DNA of 64,000 nucleotides, from positions 744,001 to 808,000 of the forward strand of contig NZ_JAXIVS010000002.1 of NCBI RefSeq assembly GCF_034259325.1. Direction: 5' to 3'. The first letter of the stretch is position 1; the number at the start of each line of letters is the position of its first letter. Both the position numbers and the translations under genes were made by a program. Below are positions 8,525 through 14,432 of the stretch, in pieces. The DNA is from Hyalangium ruber. GTDB lineage: Bacteria; Myxococcota; Myxococcia; Myxococcales; Myxococcaceae. Below the pieces are notes generated by a model. It was not told the origin of the DNA. It worked only from the letters and a program-made list of their open reading frames with translations, and searched no databases.

Positions 8525-8636
8525 CACCCGGCCGGCGTTACTTTCTTCACAGGTCCACGTTCCCCGCGCCCAAGTGCCCGAGATCGCAACGGATGGCATT
8601 GGCACAGGATTCGCAATCCCCGGGGCCTGGATTCCT

Positions 8637-8930
8637 ATGTTTCGTCAACATGCACGCGTCGCGGGCGCCTACCGCGTCACCTTCGCTCCAGAGGCTTGGA
8701 AGGAAATCGGGCGACTCTCCAGCGGCACCTTCCTGGTGCTGCAGCAGGCGCTGGAGCAGCTCGCCCACCAGGACAAGCCCACTTCGTCCGAGGAGGCGTC
8801 TTGTACGCACCTCACCTTCACGATTCGCTCCCTCGTCATCCATTGCGAGCGGGATGAGCGGACGCACACGCTGACCCTGCACCGCCTCACCTCCCTCTCG
8901 GATGACAAGGGCGGCGGCGGCCCGCGCTAG
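8637..8930 (+). CDS. RelE/ParE-like small protein
   Basis: A 97-residue protein whose core (AYRVTFAPEAWKEIGRLSSG, then LVLQQALEQLA, then THLTFTIRSLVIHCERDERTHTLTLHRL) follows the RelE/ParE toxin layout: beta strand, two helices, then three beta strands. The start at 8637 is chosen because the fold begins there; ATG 8574 would add 21 residues. No antitoxin-like gene lies on either side, and the C-terminal catalytic or gyrase-binding residues cannot be verified by eye. It may be a solitary RelE-superfamily protein with another role. Confidence 0.6.
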   Translation: MFRQHARVAGAYRVTFAPEAWKEIGRLSSGTFLVLQQALEQLAHQDKPTSSEEASCTHLTFTIRSLVIHCERDERTHTLTLHRLTSLSDDKGGGGPR

Positions 8931-9032: not shown

Positions 9033-9761
9033 ATGAAAGGGCGCTGGCTTTCCTTAAATGAGCCAGGGAACCCGCCTACCGTGCAGACCTTGCTCAACCC
9101 ACACATCGAGACCCCCGACTCGCTCGCGTCGATGCGGCAGCGCTACCTCGCCGCCCAGCTTCGTGGAGACCGCCGCGAGGCGCTGCGCCTGCTGGTGGAC
9201 GAAGGCCTTCTCCAAGGCATTCCCCTTCAGGACATCCACCTCAAGGTCATCCAGCCGGCCCAGTACGAGATTGGCCGACTGTGGCAGGAGAACATCATCT
9301 CCGTGGCCCAGGAGCACCTGGCCACCGCCATCTCCCAGCTCGCGCTCTCCCACCTCTACCGCCACCTGCCCAGGGACCCCGCCAACGGCAAGGTCATCAT
9401 GCTCTCGTGCGTGGAGGGAGAGCTGCACGAGGTGGGCGCGCGCATGGCCAGCGACTTCCTGGAGATGGCGGGCTTCGACGTGCGCTTCCTGGGCGCCAAC
9501 GTCCCCACCGACCACCTGGTGCGCATGGTGCGCGAGCAGCGGCCGGACCTGCTGGCGCTCTCGGTGAGCATGACCTACCACCTGCCTGCCCTGCGCCTCG
9601 CCGTGGCGGCGGTACACGCGGTGGCACCTCGCCTGCCCATCGCCGTGGGGGGACTGGCCTTCACCTGGGCGCCCGGCCTGGAAAAAGAACTCGACATCTC
9701 CTTCCATGGTAGGGACGCGCGAGAGCTGGTCGCCTCGGCCTGCCGGACCCTCGGAGTCTAG
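9033..9761 (+). CDS. Stand-alone B12-binding protein, CarH-like sensor module
   Basis: A 242-residue protein with no DNA-binding or catalytic domain. Residues about 30-115 form the four-helix B12 cap and 118-240 the Rossmann B12-binding domain. Seen directly: W84 then nine residues then E94-H95, exactly the Wx9EH spacing of CarH/LitR photoreceptor caps; the base-off cobalamin motif ELHEVG (His132); then SVSM and VGGLAF, matching the SxL and GG elements of the B12 loop. The residue after the Trp is Gln, whereas Thermus CarH has the His that forms the light-state adduct. A GGAGG lies 14 bases before the ATG. It is the first gene of an operon with a helical protein and two hybrid kinases, so I infer a sensory rather than catalytic role. 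Confidence 0.9.
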   Translation: MKGRWLSLNEPGNPPTVQTLLNPHIETPDSLASMRQRYLAAQLRGDRREALRLLVDEGLLQGIPLQDIHLKVIQPAQYEIGRLWQENIISVAQEHLATAISQLALSHLYRHLPRDPANGKVIMLSCVEGELHEVGARMASDFLEMAGFDVRFLGANVPTDHLVRMVREQRPDLLALSVSMTYHLPALRLAVAAVHAVAPRLPIAVGGLAFTWAPGLEKELDISFHGRDARELVASACRTLGV

Positions 9762-9767
9762 TCGCCC

Positions 9768-10481
9768 ATGGATGACCTCAGCCGCCAGCTACAGGCCCAC
9801 GCCGACCGCCTCGCCGCCTCCTCCGTGGAGTGGATGTACCAGGACCCCTTCTGGGAGGCGCGCTACGGCATCGAGCGGGCCCGTCGCTTCGGCTCGGAGG
9901 ACGCGCACTTCCACGTGCGCTACCTGGTGCAGGCGCTCACCGAGCAGCGCCCCTCGGTGCTGGAAGGCTACGCGGTGTGGCTGCGCACCCTGCTCGTCTC
10001 GCGGGGCATGTGTACGCTGCACCTGGACCAGAACTTCGCCGGCCTCCAGGCGGCGCTGGCCGCCGAGGGCTTTGGCCCCGACTCTCCCGCCCACGGCTAT
10101 GTCCAGGCGGCGCGCGATGCGCTGCGCTACGCTCCTGGCCCCGCGCGCACCTTGCAGGACAGCGCCGTGGACCTGGCCCACCACGCCGTCCAGGTGCTGG
10201 GAGCGGAGGTGCCTGCCCCGTTCCAGGCCCGGCTGGAGCAGGAGCTGATGCTGCACCTGTCCTACCTCGCGGACGCGGTGGGCACCGGACACCCGGAGTT
10301 CTTCGCGCAGCACCTGAGCTGGTACGCCACCTTCTGGCCCCGGCGTGAGTTCGGCGTCCTTCCCTTCGCCCGTCTGCTGGAGGCGCTGGAGGCCGCGCTG
10401 GCCCACAGCCCCTCGGGCCAGGATGAAGTCAAAGCGGTGTTCAGCGCGGCGCGTACCCCCTCCGAGGCGTCCCCATCATGA
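9768..10481 (+). CDS. Helical protein with internal duplication, B12 operon
   Basis: A 237-residue protein starting 6 bases after the B12-binding gene and overlapping the following kinase gene by four bases (ATGA), so its translation is coupled to both. I do not recognise the family. It is predicted almost entirely helical and rich in Trp, His and Tyr. Residues about 48-100 and 162-212 align with each other: FHVRYLVQAL against LHLSYLADAV, then a Pro-containing turn, a conserved Trp, Arg-Gly/Arg-Glu, and L--ALEAAL-type ends. This indicates two copies of one helical unit. It has no signal peptide or membrane segment. Position suggests it links the B12 protein to the kinases. Confidence 0.8.
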   Translation: MDDLSRQLQAHADRLAASSVEWMYQDPFWEARYGIERARRFGSEDAHFHVRYLVQALTEQRPSVLEGYAVWLRTLLVSRGMCTLHLDQNFAGLQAALAAEGFGPDSPAHGYVQAARDALRYAPGPARTLQDSAVDLAHHAVQVLGAEVPAPFQARLEQELMLHLSYLADAVGTGHPEFFAQHLSWYATFWPRREFGVLPFARLLEALEAALAHSPSGQDEVKAVFSAARTPSEASPS

Positions 10482-12526
10482 CGACGACACCTTTACCTGG
10501 GCGCGTGTTCGACGCGCTCAGCCGGGAGGTAGCGCTCGTCTGCGACGCCTCGGGAACCATTACCTGGGTGGACGAGCGCGCCGAGCGGGTCCTCTCCGCG
10601 AGCGTGGGGCAGAAGCTGCGCGCCCTGGCCGCCCAGGGCACCGAGGAGAAGGTGGACCGACTGCTCACCCAGGCGCGGGATGAGCGCGTGGAGGGCTGGG
10701 AGCTCATCCTCTGTCGCGGAGGAGAGAAGCCCACCACCTTCGCCTTCAGCGTCCAGCCCTATGAGGGCGTGCTGGTGATGATGGGCAGCCTGGTGCCCGA
10801 GGACTACGGCAACGCGCTGGGACAGGTGAGCTCCACGCTGAGCGAGCTGGCGGCGCTCCACCGCGAGACGGAGCGCCAGCAGCGCGAGCTGCAGCGCCGC
10901 GCCGACGAGCTGCAGCGCCTCAACAAGGACCTCGAGGAGTCCAACCGCGGCGTGCGCAGCCTCCATGACGCGCTGGACGAGAAGGCCGAGAGCCTCCAGC
11001 GTGCCTCCGAGGTGAAGAGCCGCGTGGTGGCCAACGTCAGCCACGAGTTCCGCACCCCGCTGCACTCCATCCTCGGCCTGTCCAAGGTGCTGCTCAACCC
11101 GCTCAACGGCCAGCTCTCCGGCGAGCAGGAGAAGCAGGTCCACTTCATCCGCACCTCGGCCGAGGCGCTCTACGAGCTGGTCAATGACCTGCTGGACCTG
11201 TCCAAGGCGGAGGCCGGCAAGGCGGTGCTGCGCCACACCCGCTTCGCGGCCGGCGAGTTCCTGAGCGCGCTGCGCGGCATGATGCGGCCGCTGCTGCCCC
11301 CCGAGTCGTCCGTGGAGCTCATCTTCCCCGAGCCCCAGGAGGAGCTGGAGCTGGAGACGGACCAGGCCAAGCTCAGCCAGGTGCTGCGCAACCTCGTCTC
11401 CAACGCGGTGAAGTTCACCGAGAAGGGGAGCATCACCGTCAGCGTGGCGCCAGGCCCGCGCGACACCGTGGCCTTCTCCGTGAAGGACACCGGCATCGGT
11501 ATCCCCCCGGAGCACCAGGAGCGCATCTTCGAGGAGTTCATCCAGGTGGAGACGCCCCTGCACCGCAAGGTGAAGGGCACCGGCCTGGGGTTGTCGCTGG
11601 CGCGGCGCCTGGCGGAGATGCTGGGCGGCACCCTCACCGTGCAGAGCACGCCCGGCCAGGGCTCCACCTTCACCCTCACCGTGCCCCGGATGCACCCGGA
11701 GGTGAAGGAGATGACGGGGCTCTCCGAGCGCGCCGAGAAGCTGGATCCCGCGCGCGCGCCCGTGCTGGTGCTGGAGGACGACCGGCAGACGCTCTTCCTC
11801 TACGAGAAGTACCTGGAGCGCTCTGGCTTCCAGGTGCTCCCGGTGCGCACCGTGGAGGACGCCCGTCGCACCCTGCAGCGCGTGCGCCCGGCCGCCATGG
11901 TGCTGGACGTCATGCTGGAGGGCGAGACGAGCTGGAACTTCCTGGCGGAGATGAAGACGAAGGAGCAGACGCGCGACATCCCCATCCTCGTCGTCACCAT
12001 CACCGACCGCGAGCAGAAGGCGCGCGCCCTGGGCGCCGATGAGTTCTGGCTCAAGCCGGTGGAGGCCACCCAGCTGCTCCGCAAGCTGGGAGAGCTGGCC
12101 AACCGCGGCCCCGTCGAGCGCATCCTGATCATCGACGACGACGAGGTCCACCGCTACCTGCTCAAGCAGTTGCTCAAGGACACCCCCTACGCGCTGCTGG
12201 AGGCGCGGGGAGGCCGCGAAGGCCTCCTCATGGCCCGCGAGCAGGCCCCACACCTCATCTTCCTGGACTTCCTCCTGCCGGACATCACGGCCTTCGACGT
12301 GCTGGACGAGATGAAGGCGGACCCCCGCACGCGGGAGATACCCGTCATCCTCCAGACGGCCCATGAGCTGAAGGAGGACGAGCGCACGCGGCTGGGCCGC
12401 GAGACGGCGGCCATCCTCGCCAAGCACACCCTGAGTCGCGAGGTCGCCATCTCGCGCATCCGTGACGCCCTGTCCAAGGCCGGTCTGGGCTCGCGCGTCG
12501 AGGAACGGGAGGTTCGCCGTGGTTGA
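10478..12526 (+). CDS. PAS hybrid histidine kinase with two receiver domains
   Basis: A 682-residue soluble kinase. The order is a PAS-like domain (about 8-105), a coiled coil (about 115-180), HisKA with VSHEFRTP (phospho-acceptor His189), HATPase (NAVKFTEKG, DTGIGIP, GTGLGLSLARR), a receiver domain (Asp477 in VLDVML, Lys in LKP) and a second receiver (Asp597 in FLDFLLPD). There is no membrane segment, so it senses something in the cytoplasm, consistent with input from the B12-binding protein encoded two genes upstream. The start ATG overlaps the previous stop. Two receivers imply a multi-step phosphorelay. Confidence 0.95.
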   Translation: MTTTPLPGRVFDALSREVALVCDASGTITWVDERAERVLSASVGQKLRALAAQGTEEKVDRLLTQARDERVEGWELILCRGGEKPTTFAFSVQPYEGVLVMMGSLVPEDYGNALGQVSSTLSELAALHRETERQQRELQRRADELQRLNKDLEESNRGVRSLHDALDEKAESLQRASEVKSRVVANVSHEFRTPLHSILGLSKVLLNPLNGQLSGEQEKQVHFIRTSAEALYELVNDLLDLSKAEAGKAVLRHTRFAAGEFLSALRGMMRPLLPPESSVELIFPEPQEELELETDQAKLSQVLRNLVSNAVKFTEKGSITVSVAPGPRDTVAFSVKDTGIGIPPEHQERIFEEFIQVETPLHRKVKGTGLGLSLARRLAEMLGGTLTVQSTPGQGSTFTLTVPRMHPEVKEMTGLSERAEKLDPARAPVLVLEDDRQTLFLYEKYLERSGFQVLPVRTVEDARRTLQRVRPAAMVLDVMLEGETSWNFLAEMKTKEQTRDIPILVVTITDREQKARALGADEFWLKPVEATQLLRKLGELANRGPVERILIIDDDEVHRYLLKQLLKDTPYALLEARGGREGLLMAREQAPHLIFLDFLLPDITAFDVLDEMKADPRTREIPVILQTAHELKEDERTRLGRETAAILAKHTLSREVAISRIRDALSKAGLGSRVEEREVRRG

Positions 12527-14051
12527 GCCGCATATCGTCACCGTCCTCAACGTCAACGACGACGACGCCAGCCGCTACATGGTCACCCGCATCCTGGAGA
12601 TGTCGGGGCACCGGGTCATCGAGGCCGGTACGGGAGGCGACGCCCTGCGCCTGGCCGCGGAGCTGCGGCCGGAGCTCGTCATCCTGGACGTGCGGCTGCC
12701 GGACCTCAGCGGCTACGAGGTGGCCGCGCGGCTGCGCGCCAACCCCGAGACGGCCTCGCTCTCGGTGATGCACACCTCGGCCACCTTCGTCACGGCGGAC
12801 AAGCGGGTGCAGGGCCTGGACAGCGGCGCGGACGCCTACCTCACCGAGCCCTTCGAGCCGGCCGAGCTGCTGGCCACGGTGAAGAGCCTGTTGCGCCTGC
12901 GCCACGCCGAGCGCGAGCTGCGCCAGCGCGCCGACCAGCTCGCCGAGGCGGACCGCCGCAAGGACGAGTTCCTGGCCATGCTCGCCCACGAGCTGCGCAA
13001 TCCGCTGGCCGCCATCATGACGGCCATCGGCATCCTCGAGCGCAAGTCCACCGAGGACGCCAAGGAGACGCGCATGCGCTCCATCATCCACCGGCAGACG
13101 CACCACCTGGCGCGGCTGGTGGATGATCTGCTGGACGTCAGCCGCATCACCCGCGGCAAGGTGGAGCTGCGCCGCACGCGCCTGGACCTCGTGGAGGTGC
13201 TGCGTCAGGCGCTCACCCTCATCCGCCCGGTGGCCGAGGGGCGCGGGCTGAGCCTGGAGTCCACGCTGCCCGAGCAGCCGCTCTGGCTGGAGGCGGATGG
13301 CACCCGCCTGGAGCAGGTCTTCACCAACCTGCTGGACAACGCCGCCAAGTACTCGGACGCCGGCGGCAACATCCGCGTGCAGCTCTTCCAGGAGGGAGTG
13401 GACGGCAGCGCCCGGGCGGTGGTGCGCATCACCGACACGGGCATCGGCATCCCCGCCCACAAGCTGCCCACCATCTTCGAGCTCTTCGCCCAGGCGGATG
13501 AGACGCTGGAGCGCTCACGTGGGGGCCTGGGCATCGGGCTGACGCTGGTGCGCAACCTCGTGGAGATGCATGGCGGCATCGTCTACGCCAACAGCCCGGG
13601 AGCGGGCCGGGGCAGCGAGTTCGTGGTGAAGCTCCCCCTGGCCGCGCACCAACTGGCGCTGAAGGGCGACTCGCTCACGGCGCCCGAGCGCCCGCGCCAG
13701 CGCCGCATCCTCCTGGTGGAGGACAACTCGGACGCGCGCCAGGCGCTCCAGGACCTGCTGGAGCTGTGGGGTCACCAGGTGCAGGTGGCGCAGGACGGCA
13801 TGGGCGGCGTCGCCACCGCGCTGGAGATCCGCCCGGAGCTGGCGCTGGTGGACATCGGCCTGCCGGGGCTGGACGGCTACCGCGTGGCGCAGGAGCTCCG
13901 GGCTCGGGTGGGGCAGGAGATCCGGCTGGTGGCCATCACCGGCTACGGCGGGCCCGAGGACCGTTCGCGCGCGCTTCAGGCGGGCTTCGACCACCACCTG
14001 GTCAAGCCGGTGAAGCCGGACGAGCTGAACCGGCTGCTGACGAACCTCTGA
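12519..14051 (+). CDS. REC-HisKA-HATPase-REC hybrid kinase
   Basis: A 510-residue protein read from GTG 12519, preceded by GGGAGG; the upstream in-frame ATG at 12462 lies inside the previous gene and is less likely. The order is an N-terminal receiver (Asp57 in ILDVRLPD), HisKA (AHELRNP, His157), HATPase (NAAKYSDAG, DTGIGIP, GGLGIGLTLV) and a C-terminal receiver (LVEDN, VDIGLPG, KPVKP). In the first receiver the conserved Lys is Glu (LTEPFEP), which may alter phosphorylation-dependent switching. It overlaps the previous kinase gene by 8 bases and is the last gene of the B12 operon, presumably accepting signals from the upstream kinase. Confidence 0.93.
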   Translation: MVEPHIVTVLNVNDDDASRYMVTRILEMSGHRVIEAGTGGDALRLAAELRPELVILDVRLPDLSGYEVAARLRANPETASLSVMHTSATFVTADKRVQGLDSGADAYLTEPFEPAELLATVKSLLRLRHAERELRQRADQLAEADRRKDEFLAMLAHELRNPLAAIMTAIGILERKSTEDAKETRMRSIIHRQTHHLARLVDDLLDVSRITRGKVELRRTRLDLVEVLRQALTLIRPVAEGRGLSLESTLPEQPLWLEADGTRLEQVFTNLLDNAAKYSDAGGNIRVQLFQEGVDGSARAVVRITDTGIGIPAHKLPTIFELFAQADETLERSRGGLGIGLTLVRNLVEMHGGIVYANSPGAGRGSEFVVKLPLAAHQLALKGDSLTAPERPRQRRILLVEDNSDARQALQDLLELWGHQVQVAQDGMGGVATALEIRPELALVDIGLPGLDGYRVAQELRARVGQEIRLVAITGYGGPEDRSRALQAGFDHHLVKPVKPDELNRLLTNL

Positions 14052-14063
14052 GTCGAGGCGCGC

Positions 14064-14432
14064 TCAGCGCCTCAGCAGCGCCTTGGCTACCAGTCCCAGC
14101 AGCTTGATGTGCGCGGACTCGAGCTGCCGCAGGCTGCGCAGCAGCCGGCGGATCTCAGGCCGCTCGGCGGGAACCGAGGGGGGCTCCGCCGCCGTGCTGC
14201 GGGCCGGAGGCCCGTGCTGAGCCAGGCCCAGCAGCTCATCCGAGGAGACGTTCAGCTCATGGCACAGCTTGAGCAGTGTCTGAACGCTGGGGAGCATGCC
14301 GCCGCGCTCGAGACGTCCGTACACCTCCGTCGCCACATCGATCCGCTCCGCCACGTCCGCTTGCGTAAGCTCCAGGCGCATCCGGGCGGAACGTGCCGCA
14401 GCGCCAATTGTCGTTGCGAGTTTCTTGTCCAT
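14064..14432 (-). CDS. XRE-family transcriptional regulator
   Basis: A 122-residue protein with an N-terminal Cro/CI-type helix-turn-helix (ARMRLELTQADVAERIDVATEVYGRLERGG, about residues 14-45, and continuing to LNVSSDELLGL). It also has a short Pro/Ala-rich linker and a basic helical C-terminus (RRLLRSLRQLESAHIKLLGLVAKALLRR), possibly for dimerisation. An AAGGA ribosome binding site precedes the ATG. It is convergent with the kinase operon, ending 13 bases from it; no operator can be assigned. Confidence 0.88.
   Translation of the reverse strand: MDKKLATTIGAAARSARMRLELTQADVAERIDVATEVYGRLERGGMLPSVQTLLKLCHELNVSSDELLGLAQHGPPARSTAAEPPSVPAERPEIRRLLRSLRQLESAHIKLLGLVAKALLRR

Follow-up and report, generated by a model that had tools for sequence, protein, structure and literature searches.

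The closest described relatives of the locus analyzed here are the photocobilins, in which a B12 module with a light signature and a bilin-binding globin with a pocket Asp and Trp form one chain, as in SasPcob (8J2W/8J2X) and AbDPcob (8J2Y) (Nat Commun 2024, PMC10979010). Their adenosyl-B12 makes them sensitive to green light, and with biliverdin bound they also react to red; illumination removes the adenosyl group and alters quaternary structure. A diguanylate cyclase fused to a photocobilin is activated more than 10-fold by light, and a standalone photocobilin regulates an enzyme outside its own chain through protein-protein contact (PMC10979010). The second close match is in Myxococcales, where BBAG-2 proteins, which are bilin-biosynthesis-associated globins with an RGMC motif, bind biliverdin and lie beside B12-binding proteins in genomes that have heme oxygenase (Rockwell et al., PNAS 2023, PMC10151467). 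This pairing is already published, and the function of BBAGs was left open. Two characterized BBAG-2 globins bound biliverdin, yet were photoinert on their own. The experimental BBAG-2 members adjoin a bilin reductase, and Myxococcales members without one were also described (PMC10151467). CarH/LitR proteins have a W-x9-EH motif and the lower His of an adenosyl-B12 site, together with a fused MerR DNA-binding domain. A photoglobin family described by Schneider et al. in 2022 is said to have the same globin fold, and a signal-transduction role in partnership with B12 light-sensor domains was reportedly proposed for it. That work is said to treat photoglobins mainly as B12-globin fusions, and its gene-neighborhood survey may list histidine kinases.

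We analyzed a window of 64,000 nucleotides from Hyalangium ruber (contig NZ_JAXIVS010000002.1, positions 744,001 to 808,000), in which four genes on the forward strand are arranged as an operon. The first two almost certainly correspond to the BBAG-2 gene and B12 partner of PMC10151467. Relative to that pair and to the published photocobilins, the split, tandem-globin, kinase-coupled form may be new, within the limits set by the 2022 photoglobin survey. Histidine kinases do not appear as partners in the main texts of PMC10151467 and PMC10979010.

The B12 protein and its globin neighbor

The first gene (9033..9761, + strand) encodes 242 amino acids. The start codon at 9033 is uncertain, since homologues align only from about residue 30 onward and translation could instead start from a GTG at 9081. 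Pfam placed a four-helix cap (B12-binding_2) at residues 35 to 108 (E 4.6e-14) and a Rossmann B12-binding domain at residues 122 to 221 (E 9.3e-21), and these E values mean that the domain call is not due to chance. No other Pfam family was assigned (PF02607 and PF02310 only), in agreement with the original prediction of a B12 protein without a DNA-binding domain. The sequence features that it had named are also there: Trp84 is followed after nine residues by Glu94-His95, and then come ELHEVG (G129-E-L-H132-E-V-G) and VGGLAF (residues 205 to 210). The motifs GxxW, EH, GxxH, and GxxxP mark light-responsive cobalamin-binding domains (PMC11796333). By the SignatureFinder criterion, the protein has the full set (GRLW84, E94-H95, GELH132, and GANVP158), a photocobilin-type signature of GRLW-x9-EH / GELH / GANVP. 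All four motifs are kept across the operon homologues examined, and W-x9-EH is present in 35 of the 35 operon proteins compared.

A likeness to CarH/LitR had been proposed, and it holds for the signature and for the lower His of the adenosyl-B12 site, but not for the nearest characterized relatives, which are photocobilins. A phmmer search of the PDB gave SasPcob at 1.7e-29 (8J2X) and 2.1e-29 (8J2W), CtMerR at 1.3e-25, AbPcob at 3.1e-25, and Thermus CarH at about 3e-10. The NCBIfam CarH model scored 63.9 bits against a cut-off of 400. Unlike CarH/LitR, the operon protein has no MerR domain, and it has Gln instead of the bis-His residue. This Gln follows the signature Trp in every myxobacterial operon protein compared and had been raised as a caveat. 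However, SasPcob also has WQ, and its lit state carries a water or hydroxide ligand, unlike the bis-His state of CarH (PMC10979010). Therefore, the Gln after Trp84 is no objection.

CarH, CarA, and CtMerR fell apart from the operon proteins in a B12-domain tree of 21 sequences. We did not use this tree as proof of descent because it was poorly resolved, with modest support and long branches that included both photocobilins. A canonical CarH (WH...EH) and a CarA are encoded elsewhere in the same genome, on contig C23, next to genes that appear to be for carotenoids. Therefore, the 9033 protein is a separate paralogue. Its B12 cofactor is probably adenosyl-B12. We also considered His161, which corresponds to SasPcob His137, a biliverdin contact on the B12 side, as a diagnostic residue. 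It was rejected because it is kept in most Myxococcaceae but not in deeper branches.

The second gene (9768..10481, + strand) encodes 237 amino acids. Its product had been described as a helical protein coupled to the B12 gene, which was right but incomplete, since fold and motif identify it as a tandem globin of the bilin-binding type. Sequence searches of Pfam, NCBIfam, and the PDB returned nothing significant; the protein was named from its structure and motif. An AlphaFold2 model built with 25 homologues had a pLDDT of 92.5 and a pTM of 0.89. Foldseek ranked photocobilins first among PDB entries, with phycobiliproteins close behind; the E values were weak, for which the two-domain architecture of the model is a plausible reason. 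With VIA, model residues 1 to 120 superposed on the bilin domain of SasPcob (residues 227 to 340) with a Z score of 16.3 and an rmsd of 1.9 Å over 113 residues, and phycobiliproteins came next (Z about 15). The printed SasPcob chain was tied to the published numbering through Trp61, Glu71-His72, and His108. On this basis Asp45 and Trp71 of the globin correspond to the SasPcob biliverdin contacts Asp270 and Trp296, with a 26-residue spacing in both proteins. Both residues are invariant in the 25 homologues.

An SRGMC motif is also present, with RGMC at residues 79 to 82 (PMC10151467); its Cys is replaced by Ser or Ala in 4 of the 25 homologues. The motif lies in repeat 1 (residues 1 to 120) of an internal duplication, which was evident when profiles of the two globin halves were compared (P 7e-12). 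Repeat 2 (about residues 120 to 225) is divergent: the Trp is kept (W185, 24 of 25 homologues), and the key Asp position is occupied by Glu in 20 of 25. The main texts of PMC10151467 and PMC10979010 do not mention a duplication of this kind. The features of BBAG-2 found here are the RGMC motif, a B12-binding neighbor, and a heme oxygenase in the genome; the adjacent pre-2 bilin reductase of the experimental members is missing, as no PF05996 match occurs in the window's genome. The modeled fold and the motif indicate that the 9768 protein is very probably a bilin-binding globin of the BBAG-2 or photoglobin type. The sensor would therefore very probably be a two-pigment one. Compared with photocobilins, the pair has the B12 domain, a globin of the SasPcob fold, and the counterparts of Asp270 and Trp296, but it is encoded by two open reading frames with a 6-base gap rather than as one polypeptide. 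Therefore, it is not a photocobilin in the strict sense, although it would function like one. It also differs in its tandem globin, unlike the photocobilin globin domain, and in being paired with hybrid histidine kinases, whereas the output of photocobilins, where there is one, is a fused diguanylate cyclase.

Two hybrid kinases and a conserved gene block

The third gene (10478..12526, + strand) encodes HK1, with 682 amino acids arranged as PAS, coiled coil, HisKA (H189), HATPase, REC, and REC. The fourth (12519..14051, + strand, GTG start) encodes HK2, with 510 amino acids arranged as REC, HisKA (H157), HATPase, and REC. This domain content confirms the two hybrid histidine kinases that had been predicted behind the sensor genes, and the predicted gene gaps of +6, -4, and -8 bases are exact (9761/9768; HK1 ATG at 10478 against a stop at 10481; HK2 GTG at 12519 against a stop at 12526). 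In HK1, a long helix connects the PAS fold (best PDB E 1.3e-6) with HisKA, and no DNA-binding domain was found in this kinase. The N-terminal REC domain of HK2 has its conserved Lys replaced (LTEPF), and the other catalytic motifs examined are present in both kinases. The operon has no Hpt domain, DNA-binding output domain, or DNA-binding response regulator, so one or more additional partners must be encoded elsewhere.

An XRE-family HTH regulator gene (14064..14432, - strand) is convergent with the HK2 gene, and it is syntenic with the operon in Hyalangium, Myxococcus, Pyxidicoccus, and Corallococcus. The downstream XRE and chemoreceptor genes were considered as outputs and rejected because they either run against the direction of the operon or are missing from some loci. 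Directly upstream of the operon is a small GTG-start open reading frame (8574-8930, + strand), which is 72% identical to its counterpart in Hyalangium (L050 6913-7152) and has no significant Pfam match. Rfam found no B12 riboswitch or other RNA element within the window.

The original prediction had proposed a synteny comparison across myxobacteria. When this was run, the B12-globin-HK1-HK2 block proved to be conserved. The globin was found in 11 of 60 relatives (own genome included), one copy each, and the genes for the B12 protein, BBAG, HK1, and HK2 were neighbors in all 11, with HK1 truncated in G034. Searching with the PAS region of HK1 alone returned exactly the same 11 of 60 genomes, always inside the operon. 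In a wider sample the globin occurred in 60 of 195 genomes, nearly all from one family, and in all listed genomes of genera g23 and g26, which we infer to be Myxococcus and Corallococcus by comparison with named loci. The block is present in nearly all of the 26 named myxobacterial loci (29 named loci in total).

Some loci were irregular. In L021 and L051 (Myxococcus sp. CA023, G034), HK1 is without the core from HisKA to the first REC domain, and in G034 the phytochrome after bphO is also truncated (L086); each could be a real loss or a misassembly. In L067 (Myxococcus sp. RHSTA-1-4) the globin gene is intact, the B12 and HK2 genes were detected as fragments only, and HK1 was not detected, through decay or an assembly gap. 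The globin gene at G106:C1:2717950-2718510 is in two reading frames and is apparently a frameshifted copy. A full Myxococcus-type operon with its flanks was found in L060 (BNCN01000009.1), which is labeled Comamonas sp. and is probably a mislabeled or contaminated genome.

Bilin supply

Heme oxygenase makes biliverdin, and the bilin-supply genes are the strongest independent evidence for the putative bilin ligand. A heme oxygenase gene lies directly 5' of the B12-globin pair in Nannocystis pusilla (L078) and in a member of the Kofleriaceae (L073); in L073 it shares 4 bases with the B12 gene. The HK1 and HK2 genes are divergent beside these three. One relative (G005, locus L027) has a bilin reductase gene (PF05996, 1.9e-30) placed after the globin gene and ahead of HK1, and it is the only genome with PF05996 among the 60 relatives. 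Upstream of the same operon (L027 985-1323) is a heme oxygenase remnant of 112 amino acids in which both ends of the enzyme are preserved and the middle is missing. Beyond Myxococcota, three Thermomicrobia loci (L072, L075, and L076) combine the globin with a bilin reductase and are without these kinases. The B12 gene is present in L075 and L076, in which Glu, not Gln, follows the signature Trp.

Heme oxygenase of any type occurred in all 11 globin genomes versus 4 of 49 others, and the BphO type, which is the type most like the Nannocystis operon enzyme, in 10 of 11 versus none of 49; the counts and the co-occurrence P values take no account of shared ancestry. The window's genome has two heme oxygenases. 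The BphO-type gene precedes a phytochrome gene, and so its product may serve both systems. The co-occurring BphO-type gene is usually beside a phytochrome gene in the other genomes as well. We therefore rejected a heme oxygenase beside a phytochrome as proof of bilin supply, as it may serve the phytochrome. One sound case, G008, has the operon and a BphO-type heme oxygenase without any phytochrome, and in G028 phytochromes are present and neither the operon nor a BphO-type heme oxygenase is. With a truncated phytochrome and a truncated HK1, G034 was not accepted as a phytochrome-free control.

Proposed signaling and its alternatives

The reading that we favor, and consider fairly probable, is a split photocobilin, with adenosyl-B12 and biliverdin, that signals by phosphorelay. 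The original suggestion that B12, and possibly light, is read out through phosphorelay is supported by context, namely the conserved block, and was incomplete because the second protein is very probably a bilin-binding globin. We propose the following steps, from chromophore binding and complex formation through light response and kinase control to a downstream target. The 9033 protein would hold adenosyl-B12, with His132 below the cobalt and with the adenosyl group surrounded by Trp84 and Glu94-His95. Globin repeat 1 of the 9768 protein would hold biliverdin through Asp45, Trp71, and perhaps Cys82, and the biliverdin could come from the genome's own BphO-type heme oxygenase. The globin would dock on the B12 protein in the manner of SasPcob, its biliverdin edge-on to the corrin. 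The Co-C bond would be broken by green light, or by red light that biliverdin absorbs, so that the adenosyl group leaves, and the dimer of B12 domains would rearrange together with its contact to the globin. By analogy with standalone photocobilins, this rearrangement may be passed by protein contact to HK1 (PAS/coiled coil) and HK2 (REC-HK-REC), whose phosphorelay would take the place of the direct DNA binding of CarH. Counting against this reading are the photoinert behavior of isolated BBAG-2 globins, the replaced RGMC Cys in some homologues, the absence of His161 in deeper branches, a heme oxygenase that need not serve this system, the poorly resolved B12 tree, and the lack of an Hpt or DNA-binding response regulator in the operon. 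A more specific version, for which we put the chances at about even, is a two-protein photoreceptor in which the covalently linked globin repeats bridge the dimer of B12 domains and gate the dedicated hybrid-kinase phosphorelay, near-universal in Myxococcus and Corallococcus.

Of the alternatives, a light-independent cofactor sensor survives best and is still rather unlikely. The pair would tell the kinases how much adenosyl-B12 and/or biliverdin is available (heme breakdown, oxygen, and iron), and the light signature would be a by-product of binding adenosyl-B12. Heme oxygenase and bilin reductase neighbors fit sensing of tetrapyrrole status, redox state and ligands are common inputs of PAS domains, and the photoinert BBAG-2 holoproteins (PMC10151467) are consistent with such a role. 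However, all four motifs of light-responsive B12 domains are kept (PMC11796333), and the arrangement matches that of photocobilins, which do respond to light. Less probable again is a green-light sensor that uses B12 only, with a globin that has lost bilin binding and serves as a structural link from the B12 protein to HK1. There is a precedent in AbPcob, which retains its globin despite weak biliverdin binding and has His at the position of the key Asp (PMC10979010), and the Glu at that position in repeat 2 of most homologues points the same way. The invariant Asp45 and Trp71 of repeat 1, where AbPcob has His for Asp, and the heme oxygenase linkage argue against it. A corrinoid protein of a methyltransferase system would have the same common B12-binding fold, and NCBIfam gave weak matches to corrinoid methyltransferase proteins, but this is hardly credible: the matches are all far below cut-off, W-x9-EH is absent from the MetH B12 domain and the corrinoid protein (4JGI) compared, both of which form a separate long branch rather than the grouping that would have countered the prediction, and neither the window nor the operons examined in relatives showed a methyltransferase partner.

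The dedicated kinases of the conserved operon provide a testable role for BBAG globins. If the split photocobilin reading is correct, then the kinase output would be a new mode of action for B12 light sensing, and a kinase-coupled pair of this kind would be a starting point for green/red two-component optogenetic tools. Myxobacterial phytochromes have been linked to fruiting-body formation (PMC12048173) and myxobacterial CarH to carotenoids (PMC9304148). A further widespread myxobacterial light sensor using B12 and biliverdin would, if real, alter this phytochrome/CarH picture. H. ruber itself (G000) has two phytochromes (C2:471995 and C3:729211) along with CarH and CarA, which are other candidate light-sensing routes.
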